From Tamlana sp. 2_MG-2023 (lineage in GTDB: Bacteria > Bacteroidota > Bacteroidia > Flavobacteriales > Flavobacteriaceae), in assembly GCF_030548465.1 (NCBI RefSeq), contig NZ_JAUOSF010000004.1:1-64000 (forward strand): a DNA stretch of 64,000 nt. The letters are read 5' to 3'. Below are positions 1-7,475 of this stretch, in pieces (the first letter of the stretch is position 1; each line of letters begins with the position of its first letter). A program made the translations under genes and the position numbers. The notes beneath the pieces are model-generated. The model worked only from the letters and a program-made list of their open reading frames with translations. It ran no database searches and had not been told where the DNA came from.

Positions 1-225
1 CTTCGTCTCATAATACTGTTCAAATTTAAAAATTATTATTCTACTTTTAAACAGTTCGATTTTAGGGGAAGCTTACAAAATAACGAAAACTGTTTAGCAG
101 ATTTAAACATCATGAAAATTGAGATTGGTATAAATAAAATGCAACAAAGCCAAAAACATAGTGCGCAGCTCATGCAGAGTTGCTTGCGGGAGGTTTTTGA
201 AGATAAAAAAGAGGTATGTGTATAG
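1..225 (+). CDS. 3' end of a CDS cut by the window edge; possibly type I restriction specificity subunit (HsdS-like)
   Basis: The frame is open from base 1 to a TAG at 223-225, so this is the last ~74 codons of a gene that starts outside the window. The last ~35 residues form a charged amphipathic helix (QSQKHSAQLMQSCLREVFE), which resembles the conserved C-terminal helix that closes many HsdS proteins. The preceding part is low in recognisable motifs. The next gene's ATG (216) overlaps the stop, suggesting translational coupling. The HsdS call is an inference from this short tail and from the neighbouring defence genes; it could equally be another coiled-coil protein. Confidence 0.4.
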   Translation, partial: LRLIILFKFKNYYSTFKQFDFRGSLQNNENCLADLNIMKIEIGINKMQQSQKHSAQLMQSCLREVFEDKKEVCV

Positions 226-629
226 TTTCAAATAACATCAAGTTTTGCACCTGTATGGATGCTAACGTAGATTTAGAAACACTTAATCATTACTGGGTGC
301 TACACCGGTATAACAAAGATAAAATGCTAGATGTTATGGGCATGCCAATGCTACCTAGTCATTTAAACTCTAATTTTGAAGGAAATGAAAAGGCAGTACT
401 AGAAGCTTTAAATACGCCAGGCACCTTTGATAAAGACATTGCTTTTAAACAAAAAGACCGGCTGGAAGTGGTCTTGTTTAATCATGAAAACACAACCTCT
501 GAAACCTTGTATTTCAATTTTGAATTCACAGGAAAAACTTGGAAAGCAATAGAAGCCGATTGCTTTGCTATTATGAGTCGCTTTGATGAAGTGCAGCAGG
601 GAGAAATTAAAGAAGATGATACTAAATAA
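216..629 (+). CDS. hypothetical protein, 137 aa
   Basis: I do not recognise this family. The product is soluble-looking and mixed alpha/beta, with two cysteines close together near the N-terminus (FCTC, residues 11-14) and no signal peptide or membrane segment. Its ATG overlaps the stop codon of the upstream partial gene by 10 bases, so the two are probably co-translated. Downstream it converges on the AbiE-type pair with a gap of only 26 bp. The position between a possible restriction specificity gene and a toxin-antitoxin pair makes an accessory or defence-associated role plausible, but nothing in the sequence proves it. Confidence 0.6.
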   Translation: MCIVSNNIKFCTCMDANVDLETLNHYWVLHRYNKDKMLDVMGMPMLPSHLNSNFEGNEKAVLEALNTPGTFDKDIAFKQKDRLEVVLFNHENTTSETLYFNFEFTGKTWKAIEADCFAIMSRFDEVQQGEIKEDDTK

Positions 630-655
630 TAAATTGAATGAAGTTAACCTTTAAC

Positions 656-1687
656 CTAAAAAGAAACTTCAAATTCCCAATTAAGGGCTTGTAAATTCAC
701 CTTTAGAGCTTCTAAATTTTCAATTAAGGCTTGAAATGAGGGTTTCTCTTCTTCGTATATCATGTCCTGCTTCATTTTAGTATAATCATCTTCCCACGCC
801 TTGATAACGGTTGCTATCGGAATAGGGTTCAGCGTTTTAGGATTGTGTAAATTGTAATCTACATGTCCTACTCTTGCATATTTATAACGGTGTGATACAA
901 TGGTTTCATATAACTCCTTATCATTAAAAGCATGATCGGCAACCCCTGCTTGAGATAGTTGGAATATATCATACAAATGTCGGCTTAACCTATCTACTCG
1001 AATTTTTTCTTGAGGACGATGAAATTCCTCATGTAGCAGAAAAAGCTTTTCTAAAAAAGTACGTTCTGGGTTTACCGTTGGCACATTAAAAAGTGGAGCA
1101 ACAAAATCTTTACCTTGATACACTTCATCTACTATAGAACCAAATACTCTTTCAGAAAAAGGCTCTCTTAATGACCTACAACTTATTTCTATTTGTACCC
1201 GAGGTAATATATAATCTGAAGCTAAAGTAATAACGTTAGGATAATATATTTCTAAAACTCTTGGATCCTGATCGCTATCCTGTGCTTCAATAATTTTAAA
1301 ATTCAAATCATGATATCCACGGTTACTAAATTCCTGCTTTAAATCTTCGAAAAACGTGCCAGTGGTATATATACCTGCTTCTTTTCTAAGTTTCTTGATT
1401 TGAGTTTTTGAAATATCCCCATCGTAGCCATCAAAAAATGTTTTATCTATGGCTAAATCAATATCTTCAGAAAAACGATGAATTAACTTCCATGCTTTGC
1501 TTAAAGAAGTTCCGCCTTTAAACACCAAATGCTTGGCTATATCCATTTGAAAAATAATTTCTAAACTCCTGCTCACCCACCAATCTTTTTCAACAGCAAA
1601 AGGTGTCATTCCTTGTTCGGCTGCAATAGCATTAAAAACAGCAACCTTTTCTGTATTCGCTATCGTATAAAATGTGGGCTTAGTCAT
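656..1687 (-). CDS. AbiEii/AbiGii-type nucleotidyltransferase toxin
   Basis: 343 aa. Residues ~55-82 carry the DUF1814/AbiEii nucleotidyltransferase signature: FKGGTSLSKAWKLI (the GS-type motif I) followed by HRFSEDIDLAI, whose acidic residues are expected to bind metal. A conserved PERTFLEKLFLLHEE segment lies near residues 207-221. In characterised type IV AbiE systems this protein is the toxin, a nucleotidyltransferase, and causes abortive infection or growth arrest. Its ATG lies 8 bp inside the upstream antitoxin gene, the usual coupled arrangement. Length and motifs are complete, so it is likely functional. The target here cannot be read from sequence. Confidence 0.85.
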   Translation of the reverse strand: MTKPTFYTIANTEKVAVFNAIAAEQGMTPFAVEKDWWVSRSLEIIFQMDIAKHLVFKGGTSLSKAWKLIHRFSEDIDLAIDKTFFDGYDGDISKTQIKKLRKEAGIYTTGTFFEDLKQEFSNRGYHDLNFKIIEAQDSDQDPRVLEIYYPNVITLASDYILPRVQIEISCRSLREPFSERVFGSIVDEVYQGKDFVAPLFNVPTVNPERTFLEKLFLLHEEFHRPQEKIRVDRLSRHLYDIFQLSQAGVADHAFNDKELYETIVSHRYKYARVGHVDYNLHNPKTLNPIPIATVIKAWEDDYTKMKQDMIYEEEKPSFQALIENLEALKVNLQALNWEFEVSF

Positions 1688-2282
1688 TAATCAATGCTTT
1701 TTTCATTATTTTTTGAATCCAAACAGGAGCTAGAGCAATATCATGCCCTAAATGCGTTTGATTTTCTTCCTTTAGCAAATTTATTATTTTATCTTCTTCT
1801 TTTTGACTTACTTTTTTATTTCCTATTTCCTTTAACGCCTGAATAACTAAACGGCTTATAGCGCCTTTTGCTAATAGATTTTTAGGTGTCGTTTTTTTAA
1901 ATTTAATACTGCGCTTTCCTAATTTTATTTCCCGAGGTGAACCATCGGTTAGCAACACAATATTCATAGGAACTTGAGTACTTAAACCTAAAGCATTTAA
2001 AGCATAGCTTCCAGTAGGTACCGTTCTTATTTTATCGCGTTTAGCAATAGCTTCCGCAATTTCTTCTGCAGTAGGAATTATGGGGCCAATTAAAGCACTA
2101 ATTTTTGGACGCACATATATACCATGCGCTACTCTTGTAATAACTTTTTTATCTTCTAACCTATCTAGCGCTTTACGAACAGCTTCAGCAGTACCATAAT
2201 GCACATAGTCTCCAGGCATTACCAAAACCCCTTTTGGCTTACTCTTTATAGATTTTTCTATTTTATTTTCAACACTTTCCAT
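1680..2282 (-). CDS. AbiEi-type antitoxin / DUF6088 family transcriptional regulator
   Basis: 200 aa, first gene of the leftward pair. The N-terminal ~60 residues look like a winged helix (YGTAEAVRKALDRLEDKKVI followed by GIYVRP), and the remainder matches the AbiEi_4/DUF6088 layout (PTGSYALNALGLST, KFKKTTPKNLL). AbiEi antitoxins bind inverted repeats in their own promoter and neutralise AbiEii without a stable complex. Here a perfect inverted repeat lies 14 bp upstream of the ATG, which fits autoregulation. It overlaps the toxin gene by 8 bp. Family assignment rests on the partner and the shape of the protein more than on a single diagnostic motif. Confidence 0.8.
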   Translation of the reverse strand: MESVENKIEKSIKSKPKGVLVMPGDYVHYGTAEAVRKALDRLEDKKVITRVAHGIYVRPKISALIGPIIPTAEEIAEAIAKRDKIRTVPTGSYALNALGLSTQVPMNIVLLTDGSPREIKLGKRSIKFKKTTPKNLLAKGAISRLVIQALKEIGNKKVSQKEEDKIINLLKEENQTHLGHDIALAPVWIQKIMKKALIND

Positions 2283-2295
2283 GGAACAATAAAAT

Positions 2296-2336
2296 TTATT
2301 ATGTCACAAATTTAGTAAATATTTGTGACATAATAA
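2296..2336 (-). promoter_or_regulatory. Perfect inverted-repeat operator/promoter of the AbiE-type pair
   Basis: TTATTATGTCACAAAT at 2296-2311 is mirrored exactly by ATTTGTGACATAATAA at 2321-2336, with 9 nt between. On the minus strand the left arm includes TAAATTTG, a match to the Bacteroidota -7 box TAnnTTTG, so repressor binding would cover the promoter. It sits directly upstream of the antitoxin start codon (2282). Confidence 0.75.
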
Positions 2337-2562
2337 GCAGTGGTTTATTTAATCTATTAATGGTCAACCACACTAAAAACTTTATTTCGAAAGGCTCTTT
2401 TTGCTAAATTATTTACTTGATGATACTATTTAATGTTTAAATATTAAATAATTTAGAATGTAGTAAGTGTACTAAATGTAGCTCAAAAAAAAAGATTTTT
2501 TTTTTGAGTGGAAATGCTAATTTTAAAAAAGTGTGAATATTGTGTGAATATGAAAAACAAAA

Positions 2563-2588
2563 AAGGGCTTACATTTCTGTAAACCCTT
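2563..2588 (-). terminator. Intrinsic terminator-like hairpin
   Basis: AAGGG-C-TTACA (2563-2573) pairs with TGTAA-A-CCCTT (2578-2588), one mismatch and a 4-nt loop. On the minus strand it is followed by a T-rich run (2550-2564). It lies between the tRNA-Arg region and the AbiE promoter, just outside the 17-bp tRNA duplicate. Confidence 0.55.
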
Positions 2589-2598
2589 ATAAACTCTA

Positions 2599-2615
2599 GT
2601 GACCTCGACTGGATT
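2599..2615. repeat. 17-bp duplicate of the tRNA-Arg 3' end; candidate att scar
   Basis: GTGACCTCGACTGGATT is identical to 2739-2755, the last 16 bases of the tRNA-Arg gene plus one flanking base (T-arm 3' side and acceptor). The identity stops sharply at both ends. A direct copy of a tRNA 3' end beside accessory genes is the classical footprint of tyrosine-recombinase integration. No integrase gene is in this window. The rest of the tRNA is not repeated here. Confidence 0.6.
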
Positions 2616-2684
2616 GACTGTGTCTTTCCAGATAAAGCTCCGCTTTGAAAATCAACAAAAGAAAACACACTGCTCTAAAAAACA

Positions 2685-2713
2685 AAAGCAAGCTATGTTT
2701 TTTAGCTTGCTTT
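2685..2713 (-). terminator. Intrinsic terminator of tRNA-Arg
   Basis: AAAGCAAGCTA (2685-2695) pairs perfectly with TAGCTTGCTTT (2703-2713) around a 7-nt loop, and on the minus strand the stem is followed by TGTTTTTTAG. It is 27 bp beyond the tRNA 3' end. Confidence 0.7.
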
Positions 2714-2739
2714 ATTTTCAACTTGTGTTGATTTATTCG

Positions 2740-2813
2740 TGACCTCGACTGGATTCAAACCAGTAACCTCTTGAGCCGTAATCAAGTGCGCTATTCAGTT
2801 GCGCCACGAGGCC
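2740..2813 (-). tRNA. tRNA-Arg (anticodon ACG)
   Basis: The minus strand folds as a cloverleaf of 74 nt. The acceptor GGCCTCG pairs with CGAGGTC (one G-U). The anticodon stem CTTGA/TCAAG holds the loop TTACGGC, giving anticodon ACG, and the T-arm is ACTGG-TTTGAAT-CCAGT. The discriminator is A (2740) and CCA is not encoded. It has its own promoter at 2828-2860 and its own terminator. Its 3' end is duplicated at 2599-2615. Confidence 0.95.
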
Positions 2814-2827
2814 TTATTTTGTGGGTG

Positions 2828-2860
2828 CAAATATACATTATTATTTAAAACATATGCAAA
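2828..2860 (-). promoter_or_regulatory. Promoter of tRNA-Arg
   Basis: On the minus strand TTTG (2857-2860), 21 nt, then TATATTTG (2828-2835) matches the flavobacterial TTG-N17-23-TAnnTTTG consensus. The predicted start is a few bases upstream of the mature tRNA 5' end. Confidence 0.75.
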
Positions 2861-2986
2861 CTTTTTTTATAAAAATCTAATTGATTATTTTTGAAGCGTC
2901 TAAAAATATTGAGCTTAGCTTCAGTTAAAAATGAAGATCAGTTAAAAAACTTAATATTCAACTTTCAAAACCTACATCCTATTCCT

Positions 2987-3616
2987 ATGGAAACGAATTT
3001 ATTAACAGAAATTTACAAGCACCACTTAGATGAGAACCTCATCAAAGAGATTATTGAAGTAGGCGTGTATAAAACATTTGAGAAAGATGAAATTATTATA
3101 GACATCAATCAAACCCTTAAATATATGCCGCTTTTATTGAGTGGAAATATTAAGATTTTACGGGAAGATCAAGACGGTAATGAACTGCTTATCTATTTTT
3201 TAGAAGCTGGTGAAACCTGTACCATGTCGTTAACCTGTTGTATTGGCACCACAAAAAGTAAAATTAGAGCGGTTGCTGAAAGTGACTCGGCTCTTATTAT
3301 GGTTCCAGTTGCGTACATGGACAAATGGTTTCAAAGTAATGAAAGCTGGCGCCACTTCATTTTAGAGAGTTATCAAAATCGTTTTGACGAAATGCTAGAG
3401 GCTATAGACAATCTGGCTTTTATGAAAATGGACGAGCGTTTATACAAGTACCTAAAAAATAAAACCGTGCTTCATGAGTCGAAAAACATCATCATCAAGC
3501 ATCAAGACATTGCAGAAGATTTACACACCTCTCGCGTGGTAGTTTCGCGCCTCTTAAAACAATTAGAAAACGAGCAAAAAATAAAATTAAGTCGGAATAA
3601 AATCGAGATTTTATAA
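2987..3616 (+). CDS. Crp/Fnr family transcriptional regulator
   Basis: 209 aa from the ATG at 2987. An in-frame TTG at 2891 would add 32 residues, but it lies within a -7-like TATTTTTG box, so I prefer the ATG. Residues ~20-120 form a cyclic-nucleotide-binding-type beta-barrel (FEKDEIIIDINQ, LLSGNIKILREDQDG). The C-terminal ~70 residues form the Crp/Fnr winged helix, with the recognition helix in HTSRVVVSRLLKQLE. Fnr's N-terminal cluster cysteines are absent; the only close pair is in TCC near residue 84. It is encoded 90 bp upstream of the sulfur operon in the same orientation, and that operon has a Crp-like site at 3644-3659, so it probably controls those genes. The effector is unknown. Confidence 0.85.
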   Translation: METNLLTEIYKHHLDENLIKEIIEVGVYKTFEKDEIIIDINQTLKYMPLLLSGNIKILREDQDGNELLIYFLEAGETCTMSLTCCIGTTKSKIRAVAESDSALIMVPVAYMDKWFQSNESWRHFILESYQNRFDEMLEAIDNLAFMKMDERLYKYLKNKTVLHESKNIIIKHQDIAEDLHTSRVVVSRLLKQLENEQKIKLSRNKIEIL

Positions 3617-3643
3617 ACGCTTACCACCTCCCTACCCTGCTTA

Positions 3644-3688
3644 GGTAACATTTATCACAAACCAACCGCTTTCAAGGTTCTACTTTTG
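3644..3688 (+). promoter_or_regulatory. Candidate Crp-like site and promoter of the sulfur operon
   Basis: TACTTTTG at 3681-3688 matches the -7 box TAnnTTTG, and no good -33 box is present. GGTAAcatttaTCACA at 3644-3659 matches the classical Crp consensus TGTGA-N6-TCACA at 8 of 10 positions and is centred about 42 bp before the expected start. That is the spacing of a class II activator, which fits a promoter lacking its -33 element and preceded by a Crp/Fnr gene. Confidence 0.45.
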
Positions 3689-3706
3689 TGGCATAAAACT
3701 AAAAGC

Positions 3707-4264
3707 ATGGAACATATTTTAAACCCGTGGCCTTGGTATATTTCTGGGCCGCTAATTGCCATTGTTATGGCACTACTACTCTATTTCGGAAAAACATTTG
3801 GCATGTCCTCAAACCTCAGAACGCTTTGTGCGATTGGAGGTGCTGGAAAATTTGCCGATTTCTTTAAATTCAACTGGAAAGACCAGCTTTGGAACCTAAC
3901 AGTCGTTCTAGGTACTATTATTGGTGGTTTTATTGCCGTTCATTTTCTCTCGAATGATAGTGGCACCATATTAAATCCTACCACCATTTCAGAACTTCAA
4001 AATATGGGTTTTGAAAACCCCGGAGCGACCTTAGTTCCAGATGAAATGTTCAGTTTTGAAGCGATATCATCAGCAAAAGGATTAATTCTTTTAATTCTAG
4101 GCGGACTCCTTGTAGGCTTCGGAACACGTTACGCTGGTGGTTGTACTTCTGGACACGCCATTACTGGCCTAAGTAGTTTACAAAAACCATCACTTATAGC
4201 TGTTATCGGCTTTTTTATAGGGGGTTTAATTATGGCTAACTTCATATTACCGCTTATTTTTTAA
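3707..4264 (+). CDS. YeeE/YedE-type thiosulfate transporter, N-terminal half
   Basis: 185 aa from the ATG at 3707. The upstream in-frame TTG at 3686 lies inside the predicted -7 box. It has about four or five membrane segments. The family motif GGCTSGH (in RYAGGCTSGHAITGLSSL, ~residues 148-165) contains the conserved cysteine that handles thiosulfate sulfur in YeeE. Full-length YeeE is about 350 aa; here the two halves are separate genes, this one and the gene at 4281, and they presumably work together. The genes are 16 bp apart. Transported substrate (thiosulfate or a related sulfur species) is inferred from the family. Confidence 0.85.
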   Translation: MEHILNPWPWYISGPLIAIVMALLLYFGKTFGMSSNLRTLCAIGGAGKFADFFKFNWKDQLWNLTVVLGTIIGGFIAVHFLSNDSGTILNPTTISELQNMGFENPGATLVPDEMFSFEAISSAKGLILLILGGLLVGFGTRYAGGCTSGHAITGLSSLQKPSLIAVIGFFIGGLIMANFILPLIF

Positions 4265-5565: not shown

Positions 5566-6978
5566 ATGAAAATCGAACAAATTTATACAGGATGTTTAGC
5601 ACAAGGTGCTTATTATATAGAATCTAACGGTGAAGTGGCTATTATTGACCCACTTCGTGAAACACAGCAATACGTGGATAAAGCTTCCGCGGAAAATGCC
5701 ACTATCAAATATATTTTTGAAACACATTTTCACGCCGATTTCGTTTCTGGGCATATTGATCTTGCTGAAAAAACAGGAGCCACTATTGTTTATGGTCCTG
5801 GCGCTGATACCGATTATGATATCCACACCGCTAAAGATAACGAAGTTTTTAAACTCGGAAACATTGCCATAAAAGTATTGCATACCCCAGGACACACCTT
5901 AGAATCTTCAACGTTTTTGTTGATTGATGAAAACGGAAAAGAGCATGCTATTTTCTCGGGAGACACTTTGTTTTTAGGTGATGTTGGGCGTCCCGATCTT
6001 GCTATAAAATCAGATTTAACCAAAGAAGATTTAGCAGCCATGCTTTTTGATTCTTTACGTAAAAAAATCATGACACTTCCAGACGACGTTATTGTTTATC
6101 CTGCGCATGGTGCCGGTTCTGCCTGCGGAAAAAATCTAAGTAAAGAAACCGTTGGGGTTTTAGGTGATCAGAAAAAAACAAATTACGCCTTAAGAGCCGA
6201 TATGACTAAGGCTGAATTTGTAAAAGAAGTGCTTGATGGTATTGCACCACCACCACAGTATTTTGCAAAGAATGCCATGATGAACAAATCGGGTTACGAT
6301 ACTTTTGAAACCATTTTAAAACAAGGGAATACCCCTTTAACCCCTGAAGCTTTTGAACATTTAGCAAACGAAGAAGGCGCTCTAGTTTTAGATGTTAGGA
6401 ATGAAAAAGACTTTGTAAAAGCCCACATACCGAATTCTATTTTTATTGGAATTCACGGCGGATTTGCCCCTTGGGTTGGCGCTTTAATTACCGATTTAAA
6501 ACAACCTATCCTTCTAATTACTCCTGAAGGCAAAGAAGAAGAAACCGTGACGCGTTTATCTCGTGTTGGATACGATAATACTTTGGGGTACTTAGAAGGT
6601 GGTATCGAAGCTTGGGAAAAGGCAGGAAAAGATATTGAAACCATTGAATCTATTCCTGTTGAAGCATTTTCTAAACGTTTTAAAGCTGAAAACATTCAGG
6701 TTTTAGATGTTCGTAAAGATGGAGAATACAAATCGGAACATTTAGAAGGTGACTCTGTTAAACATTTTGCTTTAGATTTTATTAATGACAACATGAATGC
6801 CATTGATAAAAATCAAGAATATTATCTGCATTGTGCAGGAGGTTACCGTTCGGTAATTGCAGCTTCTATTTTAAAAGCACGCGGTTTTGATAAATTAGTT
6901 GATATTGCAGGTGGCTTTGCTGCTCTTAAAGATTCTGATTTACCAACAACAGACTTTGTTTGTCCTTCGACATTATAA
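5566..6978 (+). CDS. CstB-like persulfide dioxygenase with two rhodanese domains
   Basis: 470 aa from the ATG at 5566; an in-frame ATG at 5494 is possible but would add an uncharacteristic leader. Residues 1-~240 are a metallo-beta-lactamase fold with the mononuclear iron motif THFHADF, plus GHT and SGDTLF. Phe replaces the last His of the dinuclear HxHxDH, as in ETHE1/CstB-like enzymes that need only one metal. A first rhodanese domain (~265-355) lacks the catalytic Cys (LLITPEGKEE) and is degenerate. The second (~365-465) has YLHCAGGYRS with the active Cys. This three-domain order matches CstB, which oxidises low-molecular-weight persulfides to sulfite or thiosulfate. It is the last gene of the operon. 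Confidence 0.88.
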   Translation: MKIEQIYTGCLAQGAYYIESNGEVAIIDPLRETQQYVDKASAENATIKYIFETHFHADFVSGHIDLAEKTGATIVYGPGADTDYDIHTAKDNEVFKLGNIAIKVLHTPGHTLESSTFLLIDENGKEHAIFSGDTLFLGDVGRPDLAIKSDLTKEDLAAMLFDSLRKKIMTLPDDVIVYPAHGAGSACGKNLSKETVGVLGDQKKTNYALRADMTKAEFVKEVLDGIAPPPQYFAKNAMMNKSGYDTFETILKQGNTPLTPEAFEHLANEEGALVLDVRNEKDFVKAHIPNSIFIGIHGGFAPWVGALITDLKQPILLITPEGKEEETVTRLSRVGYDNTLGYLEGGIEAWEKAGKDIETIESIPVEAFSKRFKAENIQVLDVRKDGEYKSEHLEGDSVKHFALDFINDNMNAIDKNQEYYLHCAGGYRSVIAASILKARGFDKLVDIAGGFAALKDSDLPTTDFVCPSTL

Positions 6979-7027
6979 ATCTAGCACACCTTAATAAGGA
7001 AAAGATTGTTTGAAAGATTTTCTTTTT

Positions 7028-7106
7028 CGTCAACCTGAACTTGATTCAGCTTCTCACAATGATAGGAATCAGCATGATGAGATTCTGAATCAAGTTCAGA
7101 ATGACG
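7028..7106. repeat. Paired palindromic intergenic repeat (GTCATTCTGAACTTGATTCAGAA family)
   Basis: Two inverted units face each other. The left begins CGTCAACCTGAACTTGATTCAG and the right ends CTGAATCAAGTTCAGAATGACG; each is itself a short palindrome around CTTGA/TCAAG. The core is shared with 13407-13486 and 16520-16599, but here the outer TGTCTAAAAAGT arms are missing. It lies between two converging operons. Confidence 0.7.
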
Positions 7107-7199
7107 TAAGTGCGAAACGGTTGAACAGATAAACGATTAAACAAATCAACATCTAAACAGTTAAACGGCTATACAAACAGGTTCTGAATGACAAAAAAA

Positions 7200-7475
7200 T
7201 TATACTATCTCAGCACTTAAACCTGCTTCAAGAAGCATAGAACAACGTGGTTTTAAGTCGTCGTAATCACCAGTTTTCACAGTACATTTTCCGTTATAAT
7301 GAACAATTAACGAGCATTGCTCTGCTTGTTCTGCGGTGTGATCACACACATAAATAAGGGTTTCTATAACATGATCGAAGGTATTCACATCATCGTTATA
7401 TACTACTATTTCATTTTGAGTGGAAACCGCTTCCTCGAGCAGTACCTCTTCGGATGTTTTTTCTTTCGTACTCAT
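7200..7475 (-). CDS. clpS: ATP-dependent Clp protease adaptor ClpS
   Basis: 91 aa, the usual length. It has the ClpS core: VVYNDDVNTFDHVIETL (the N-degron-binding NDD/xNT segment, residues ~24-40) and HYNGKCTVKTGDYDDL. ClpS binds N-terminal destabilising residues and delivers substrates to ClpAP-type unfoldases; in Bacteroidota the partner is ClpC/ClpA. It follows prmA by 11 bp on the same strand and is probably its operon partner, an order common in flavobacteria. Confidence 0.93.
   Translation of the reverse strand: MSTKEKTSEEVLLEEAVSTQNEIVVYNDDVNTFDHVIETLIYVCDHTAEQAEQCSLIVHYNGKCTVKTGDYDDLKPRCSMLLEAGLSAEIV

Follow-up and report, generated by a model that had tools for sequence, protein, structure and literature searches.

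The window analysed here, the first 64 kb of contig C33 (NZ_JAUOSF010000004.1) of Tamlana sp. 2_MG-2023, contains a tRNA-Arg(ACG) gene at 2739-2813 on the minus strand (ARAGORN; 57.8 bits with the Rfam tRNA model). Directly behind this gene is a structured, non-coding unit of 140 bp (2599-2738, minus strand), here designated E1, which is made up of a 123-bp insert and a 17-bp copy of the tRNA 3' end. The same unit is present in one sister genome (G005) and is exactly missing from another (G002). Related units form a family that is found behind tRNA-Arg, and also behind tRNA-Leu(GAG) and tRNA-Tyr, in many genera of the Flavobacteriaceae. We hold, with moderate confidence, that this unit represents a non-coding mini-element which targets the 3' ends of tRNA genes, mainly those for tRNA-Arg, for insertion; that E1 moves is what we infer from the observations below. 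The classes E1 to E4 used here are our own and were defined by simple patterns.

Anatomy of the E1 unit

The sequence GTGACCTCGACTGGATT is present twice on the minus strand, at 2739-2755, where it forms the last 17 nt of the tRNA-Arg(ACG) gene from the AAT of the T-loop to the 3' end, and at 2599-2615. This exact copy had been noted in the preliminary description and is confirmed. The identity extends over exactly 17 bp and stops on both sides, and the probability of the sequence, given the composition, is 1.7e-11 per site. No third copy at ≤1 mismatch was found in the 4.0-Mb, 45-contig assembly of this strain, and the reversed pattern also gave 0 matches. The start of the core in the T-loop is a usual place for integrases that target tRNA genes. 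The direct repeat of the tRNA 3' end stands on both sides of the unit and leaves tRNA-Arg(ACG) whole, and the earlier proposal of a duplication of the type produced by site-specific integration is supported. However, the interval between the two copies, which had been described as empty, is occupied by the structured unit.

All features of the unit are on the minus strand. Read on the strand of the tRNA, the order is GAATAAATC, a long hairpin (H1) with an internal terminator, TTTTC, two further hairpins (H2 and H3) and the second 17-bp copy. The base of H1 is formed by a 5' arm at 2726-2734 and a 3' arm at 2649-2657, the latter followed by TTTTC; the two arms fold together and covary across relatives. 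An intrinsic-terminator-like hairpin within H1 (2685-2713) is now the terminator nearest the tRNA. H2 (2634-2646; AAAGC-GGA-GCTTT) forms in the DNA fold and has compensatory variants in relatives. H3 (2609-2631), supported by folding and by a permutation test, has an outer stem, CTGGA/TCCAG, that copies the T-stem of the tRNA in front of it, and its sequence continues into the distal 17-bp copy. Beyond that copy is an older terminator of the tRNA (2563-2588), apparently displaced by the unit. These two terminator-like sites (2713-2685 and 2588-2563) compare with 0.3 expected. H1 and H3 were found by RNA folding and DNA folding alike (z -3.6 and -3.9), whereas H2 was formed only in the DNA fold, and the minimum-energy RNA fold pairs 2634-2646 differently. 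The 123-bp insert contains no gene and hence does not encode a site-specific recombinase. Units of the family that have a core copy are non-coding and range from 111 to 235 bp.

Presence and absence in related genomes

G002 represents a precise empty site, in that its match to the tRNA and its match to window positions 2519-2615 overlap by exactly 17 bp. A second genome of the same genus, G003, also lacks the unit, and a terminator of the older kind is found directly 3' of the tRNA in G002, G003 and G019. In G005, the unit is present with 98 % identity over H1 and H2, and its distal copy has one mismatch. G001 and G004 have other sequence at this position, where an integrase gene follows the tRNA at 0.2 and 1.6 kb, respectively. 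That the unit was inserted in a common ancestor of this strain and G005 would be a simpler reading than loss elsewhere.

G002 does carry an E1 unit at a different place (G002:C56:78591; about position 620 of locus L358), behind a tRNA-Arg-type 3' core that is not part of a whole tRNA. In this case, an island has probably displaced the unit from its tRNA.

Constraint on the stems

The structural tests used 98 units, most of which were found through the H2 motif. Conservation of the H2 sequence is, therefore, partly circular, but the tests on H1, H3 and the tRNA are unaffected. L224, which has a tRNA-Ser neighbour and lacks the architecture, was dropped before the units were counted.

H1 and H2 covary. 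The arms of H1 are inverted repeats that differ freely between units, and over 77 distinct arm pairs the base of H1 has 7.27 Watson-Crick pairs out of 8, compared with 3.53 when partners were permuted (maximum 4.13 in 2000 permutations). In an alignment of the 29 of the 98 units that are of equal length, 96.1 % of the cells are paired versus 74.2 % after shuffling, and 18 pairs are changed on both sides, a number reached in 0 of 500 shuffles. Five of the six H2 pairs are invariant in this alignment, and H2 adds nothing there. H2 was examined separately with a search that left three stem positions and one loop base free. This gave 60 instances in 44 loci, comprising 24 new loci (six of 30 were already in the set and were excluded) and 20 picked by eye to include both stem types; instances within one array are not independent and arrays were counted repeatedly. 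A tRNA stands ≤700 bp upstream of 28 of the 37 instances with complementary stems, versus 2 of the 23 with non-complementary stems (Fisher 5e-7). The complementary stems seen were AAA/TTT, AAC/GTT, ACA/TGT, AGA/TCT, AAG/CTT and AGC/GCT. Among the nine complementary instances with no whole tRNA within 700 bp, five (in L325 and L348) are at contig ends and four (one in L338, two in L352 and one in L358) are behind a bare tRNA 3' core.

H3 follows the tRNA behind which it stands. Its 5' strand is the 5' strand of the T-stem of the unit's own tRNA in 46 of the 98 units, compared with 16.3 when tRNAs were permuted (maximum 28), the 3' strand matches in 48 (16.0 permuted, maximum 27) and both strands match in 27 (9.1 permuted, maximum 17). 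Where a loop flanked by GC could be recognized (32 of 98 units), the inner loop of H3 is always GNA. In some units H3 runs into a full tRNA 3' end, and the full tail of the local tRNA is present in 16 of the 98, as against 25 of 1,960 shuffled comparisons.

Distribution and tRNA specificity

The H2 motif TTTTCAAAGCGGAGCTTTG (≤1 mismatch) was found in 16 of 60 Flavobacteriaceae genomes representing 60 genera, while the reversed pattern gave 0. The matches make up 30 loci, some of them from one array, and 29 have a tRNA gene upstream on the same strand (28 tRNA-Arg and one tRNA-Tyr); the thirtieth is 2.4 kb behind a tRNA-Arg. A wider scan for the exact motif returned at least 162 instances in at least 120 loci. 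Among the 162 matches listed, 120 have a same-strand tRNA ≤3 kb upstream (119 tRNA-Arg and one tRNA-Leu), most commonly with 60-65 nt between the tRNA and the H2 motif, 16 have <200 bp of room and 26 have no tRNA. Six of these 26 are in other phyla and look like chance matches; others are units that follow only a tRNA-like core, e.g. GGGTCAC. Outside the Flavobacteriaceae, the motif matched five times in four genomes, with no recognizable unit.

When the survey was conducted from the side of the tRNA, 13 of 98 tRNA-Arg(ACG) loci were found to carry E1 by a strict rule, and at least two more (L063 and L299) have a unit by eye. A core copy is present ≤520 nt from the tRNA in 11 of the 98 loci, versus 0 of 98 for the reversed core. 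This survey used 98 of the 99 loci examined, from 108 genomes with a match, and passed over some places with lower identity or at the end of a contig; one locus is a tRNA-Arg(TCG).

In Flavobacterium, units of the E1 type were seen by eye in 21 of 29 loci for tRNA-Leu(GAG) (L369-L398), a sample of best matches that is therefore biased. The H1 sequences of these units differ widely, yet they remain self-complementary. Five further loci (L107, L181, L101, L163 and L179) have E1 units with no tRNA in the stretch read around them, each after a shared GTYCGAAC...GGGTCAC (GGGTAAC in one case). The sequence that precedes E1 in L107 and L181 looks like a further type of mini-element.

Relationships between units and stacking

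Closely similar units are found at different genes. For 26 of the 98 units, the nearest relative (≥80 % identity in H1) is at a different isoacceptor or a different tRNA. Over H1 and H2, the unit in the window is 93 % identical to a unit behind tRNA-Arg(TCT) in bacterium R38 and 90-91 % identical to two units behind tRNA-Arg(TCG), and units of Euzebyella and Flagellimonas at tRNA-Arg(TCG) are 93 % identical to an Arenibacter unit at tRNA-Arg(ACG). Among the pairs listed at ≥85 %, identity over the 100 bp that precede the tRNA is 9-64 %.

Units are also stacked. A core copy (≤2 mismatches) is found within 300 nt in 28 of the 98 units, and in 17 of those 28 another unit (E1, E3 or E4) follows the core copy directly. 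L104 has ten tandem copies, and L373 and L376, in which the flank is 94 % identical, differ in the length of the array.

E3 (L284, L301, L303, L308 and L312) and E4 (L274 and L310) are other sequence families found behind tRNA-Arg. Their plan is similar: a pair of inverted arms encloses a terminator, GAGYTTnnTCAGGA...AATCC comes next, and a tRNA 3'-end copy is often present as well. Stacks with E1 occur in both orders (L160 and L161).

How E1 might insert

If E1 is a mini-element, its insertion would copy about the last 17 bp of the tRNA gene, with the near copy keeping the tRNA whole and the far copy closing the element. The terminator in H1 would then take over from the displaced older terminator. 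H2, H3 and the core copy together would be the most likely recombination site, in which H3 reproduces the inverted repeat of the tRNA T-stem. The T-stem inverted repeat is what integrases that target tRNA genes use. As the unit contains no gene and a recombinase is rarely nearby, any movement would depend on a recombinase supplied in trans, most likely a tyrosine recombinase encoded by the host or by another element.

Since H3 rebuilds the stem of the local T-arm and H2 is a near-invariant hairpin with a tight loop, a more specific form of this reading can be drawn by analogy, though we give it little chance. E1 might be an addressed single-strand recombination module, with a recombinase joining folded strands at the T-arm, as the integron integrase does with attC, and the tRNA-Arg loci would be cassette-like arrays that grow beside the tRNA.

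Several findings weigh against a mini-element. The difference between this strain and G002 could be due to loss between the repeats, 70 of the 98 units have no 17-bp copy (≤2 mismatches) within 300 nt, and about half have no match to the local T-stem by the test used. Either decay has erased the duplication in these 70, or tandem duplication is how many units spread. The unit at tRNA-Leu in Flavobacterium seems to be orthologous in several species, as expected of a resident element. Collections of phages and plasmids contained no record matching the unit in the window. A tyrosine recombinase was found in only 2 of 71 E1 loci (the fetched locus, up to 8 kb), using homology to the eight integrases of this strain's own genome, so that distant ones could be missed.

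Alternative explanations

It is unlikely, in our view, that the 140 bp are the attachment (att) scar of a larger element, i.e. a shrunken att pair of a tRNA-Arg island, comparable to a cis-mobilizable element (CIME), or the end of the neighbouring AbiE island. A defence island does lie directly beyond the unit, larger elements use tRNA-Arg in relatives (the integrases behind the tRNA in G001 and G004), an insertion of two genes (about 2.3 kb) separates tRNA and unit in L180, and a study of ssrA islands in Dehalococcoides describes similar tandem repeats (PMC3146451). However, one architecture with a conserved H2 across many genera is unlike the remnants of unrelated islands. H2 is missing from the shown right ends (110-450 bp) of the larger insertions in L180, L212 and L358, and a third core copy was not found in 12 kb of G005.

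We think it quite unlikely that E1 is a structured RNA or trailer element that resides at tRNA-Arg and acts in termination or in maturation of the tRNA, being mostly inherited and sometimes lost, with the 17-bp copy as part of a T-arm mimic. The covariation of the stems and the Flavobacterium units with shared flanks fit such a resident RNA. Among pairs at the base of H1 that are not Watson-Crick pairs, G.T (27) exceeds A.C (9), as if one strand folds, though these are cells of related units and are not independent. On the other hand, the distribution at tRNA-Arg(ACG) loci is patchy (13 of 98 by the strict rule), closely similar units stand at different tRNAs in different genera, E1 is stacked with other families with core copies between them, and H2 and H3 are located past the terminator.

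Plain local tandem duplication, by slippage, of the tRNA 3' end and terminator is very improbable; tandem arrays of partial units exist and the relatives L373 and L376 differ in array length, but the 123 bp are unlike the flank beyond and match units that stand behind different tRNA genes in different genera, and the older terminator sits beyond the second copy. Insertion after TCAC in the manner of IS200, with no target duplication, was also considered and is disfavoured because of the frequency with which the full tail of the local tRNA is present (16 of 98 units versus 25 of 1,960 shuffled comparisons).

Comparison with known elements

No description of a unit like E1 was found in Rfam, in the phage and plasmid collections or in a subset of the open-access literature (titles and starts of abstracts). 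Searching window positions 1-4000 with Rfam 15 at E≤1 matched only the tRNA, and six E1 loci gave eight tRNAs and one cobalamin riboswitch located away from the unit, but no family for E1. Two viral contigs contain the H2 motif. One of them, L212, has at its end a tRNA-Arg-type core with a unit after it; in the other, L211, the motif has no H1-like context, which we read as chance.

The closest known picture is that of the ssrA islands of Dehalococcoides, which are gene-bearing and stacked (PMC3146451). CIMEs and the tandem ssrA islands resemble E1 in that the 3' end of a stable-RNA gene is directly repeated, insertion is in the T-loop, units stack downstream of the gene and some of them have no integration genes. 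In contrast, E1 is non-coding, has one hairpin architecture and a terminator, and often carries a copy of the T-stem. A CIME would derive from, and be mobilized by, an integrative element (ICE or IME) that shares its att sites; a parent with E1 ends was not seen among the loci read, though no dedicated search was made.

Resemblances to other small repeats are also limited. Repetitive extragenic palindromic (REP) elements are dispersed intergenic palindromes with many copies per genome. Like E1, REP elements, bacterial interspersed mosaic elements and other elements moved by REP-associated tyrosine transposases are short non-coding hairpins that form tandem arrays and are probably moved in trans. 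Unlike them, E1 is tied to tRNA 3' ends, has few copies in a genome and is associated with duplication of the tRNA core; the genome of this strain has one H2 copy (≤2 mismatches), and 119 of the 120 tRNA-preceded instances listed are at tRNA-Arg. Integron attC sites have RYYYAAC and GTTRRRY boxes and are associated with gene cassettes and IntI. They share with E1 a conserved structure with variable sequence and arrays of recombination-like sites, but E1 is on the tRNA T-arm and no gene cassettes were present in the arrays read (attC boxes and IntI were not scanned for). Miniature inverted-repeat transposable elements (MITEs) have terminal inverted repeats shared with a transposase-bearing element. 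They, too, are small, non-coding and non-autonomous, but E1 targets the 3' end of a tRNA gene, with a core of 17 bp. A parent transposon with matching ends was not seen, though no dedicated search and no transposase search were made.

Elements that target tRNA genes are known; E1 would be one reduced to a structured unit free of genes. As classic landing sites of mobile DNA, tRNA genes often bear scars that are usually treated as leftovers. Here, the scar itself is a strongly covarying unit found in many genera, often with a repeat of the local T-stem and with its own terminator. If E1 moves, it is a very small element aimed at tRNA genes, and one can then test how a recombinase recognizes a unit that has no gene. 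Otherwise, it is a structured trailer of tRNA-Arg in bacteria that had not been described. In either case, care is needed when calling island boundaries, as a core copy by tRNA-Arg does not imply an island.

Neighbouring island, contig end and further observations

The preliminary description placed an AbiE-type toxin-antitoxin pair beyond the repeat, and the pair is confirmed. A gene for an AbiEi-type antitoxin (1680-2282, minus strand; Pfam DUF6088; PADLOC 2e-68), which is outside the unit, adjoins one for the AbiEii nucleotidyltransferase toxin (656-1687, minus strand; Pfam 1e-40, PADLOC 1e-97), the arrangement of a type IV system. An ORF of 137 aa (216-629, plus strand) belongs to no family, with no match in Pfam, PADLOC or NCBIfam at E≤1. 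The possible HsdS tail is also borne out, as window positions 142-200 are 93 % identical to the 3' end of an ORF of 573 aa on contig C15 that carries a Methylase_S domain. This 3' end of hsdS (78-225, plus strand, start approximate) is cut by the repeat at the contig end. Window positions 1-77 recur at seven other contig ends of the assembly (C1, C2, C4, C7, C9 and both ends of C17) and probably belong to the end of an insertion sequence, present in several copies, by which hsdS is interrupted; the contig ends at window position 1 because of this repeat.

In G005, the counterpart encodes AbiEi, the first 17 residues of AbiEii, HsdM, HsdS, a GIY-YIG protein, a Fic protein and HsdR. These island genes are absent from G002, which upholds the proposal of an accessory island beyond the repeat. 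However, the 17-bp copy, taken earlier as the end of the AbiE island, closes the separate 140-bp unit, and the island starts past the older terminator. Moving away from the tRNA, G005 has the second copy, the older terminator and then the island, after which the G002 flank resumes, about 11.2 kb from the start of the tRNA. A distal repeat and an integrase had been predicted for the island. No third copy was found in 12.1 kb of G005 (18-mer, ≤3 mismatches), and none of the eight integrases of this strain has a homologue in the G005 stretch. The repeat was also expected not to occur where there is no island; this fails in part, as G010 and G017 carry the unit and core copy, and the next 13 kb or so downstream contain no AbiE homologue. 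An AbiE island bounded by the 17-mer is rejected on the basis of G005, G010 and G017.

Further observations were made at tRNA-Arg loci. L113 encodes a tyrosine recombinase (6377-7414) that is 70 % identical to one encoded on C16 of this strain; its gene follows the E1 unit of a tRNA-Arg(TCT) at a distance of a few hundred bp. Partial copies of tRNA-Arg that begin at the anticodon loop (47-48 bp) were seen at G479:C3:73298-94906 and G071:C6:51611-51658; the copy in G479 is 21.5 kb behind the tRNA and likely marks an integrated element with a longer core. The insertion in L180 (4290-6490) has two genes (152 and 463 aa), with no Pfam family above the cut-off and no integrase, located between tRNA-Arg and E1 and flanked by a repeat of the tRNA 3' end, and is a candidate for an integrase-less island.

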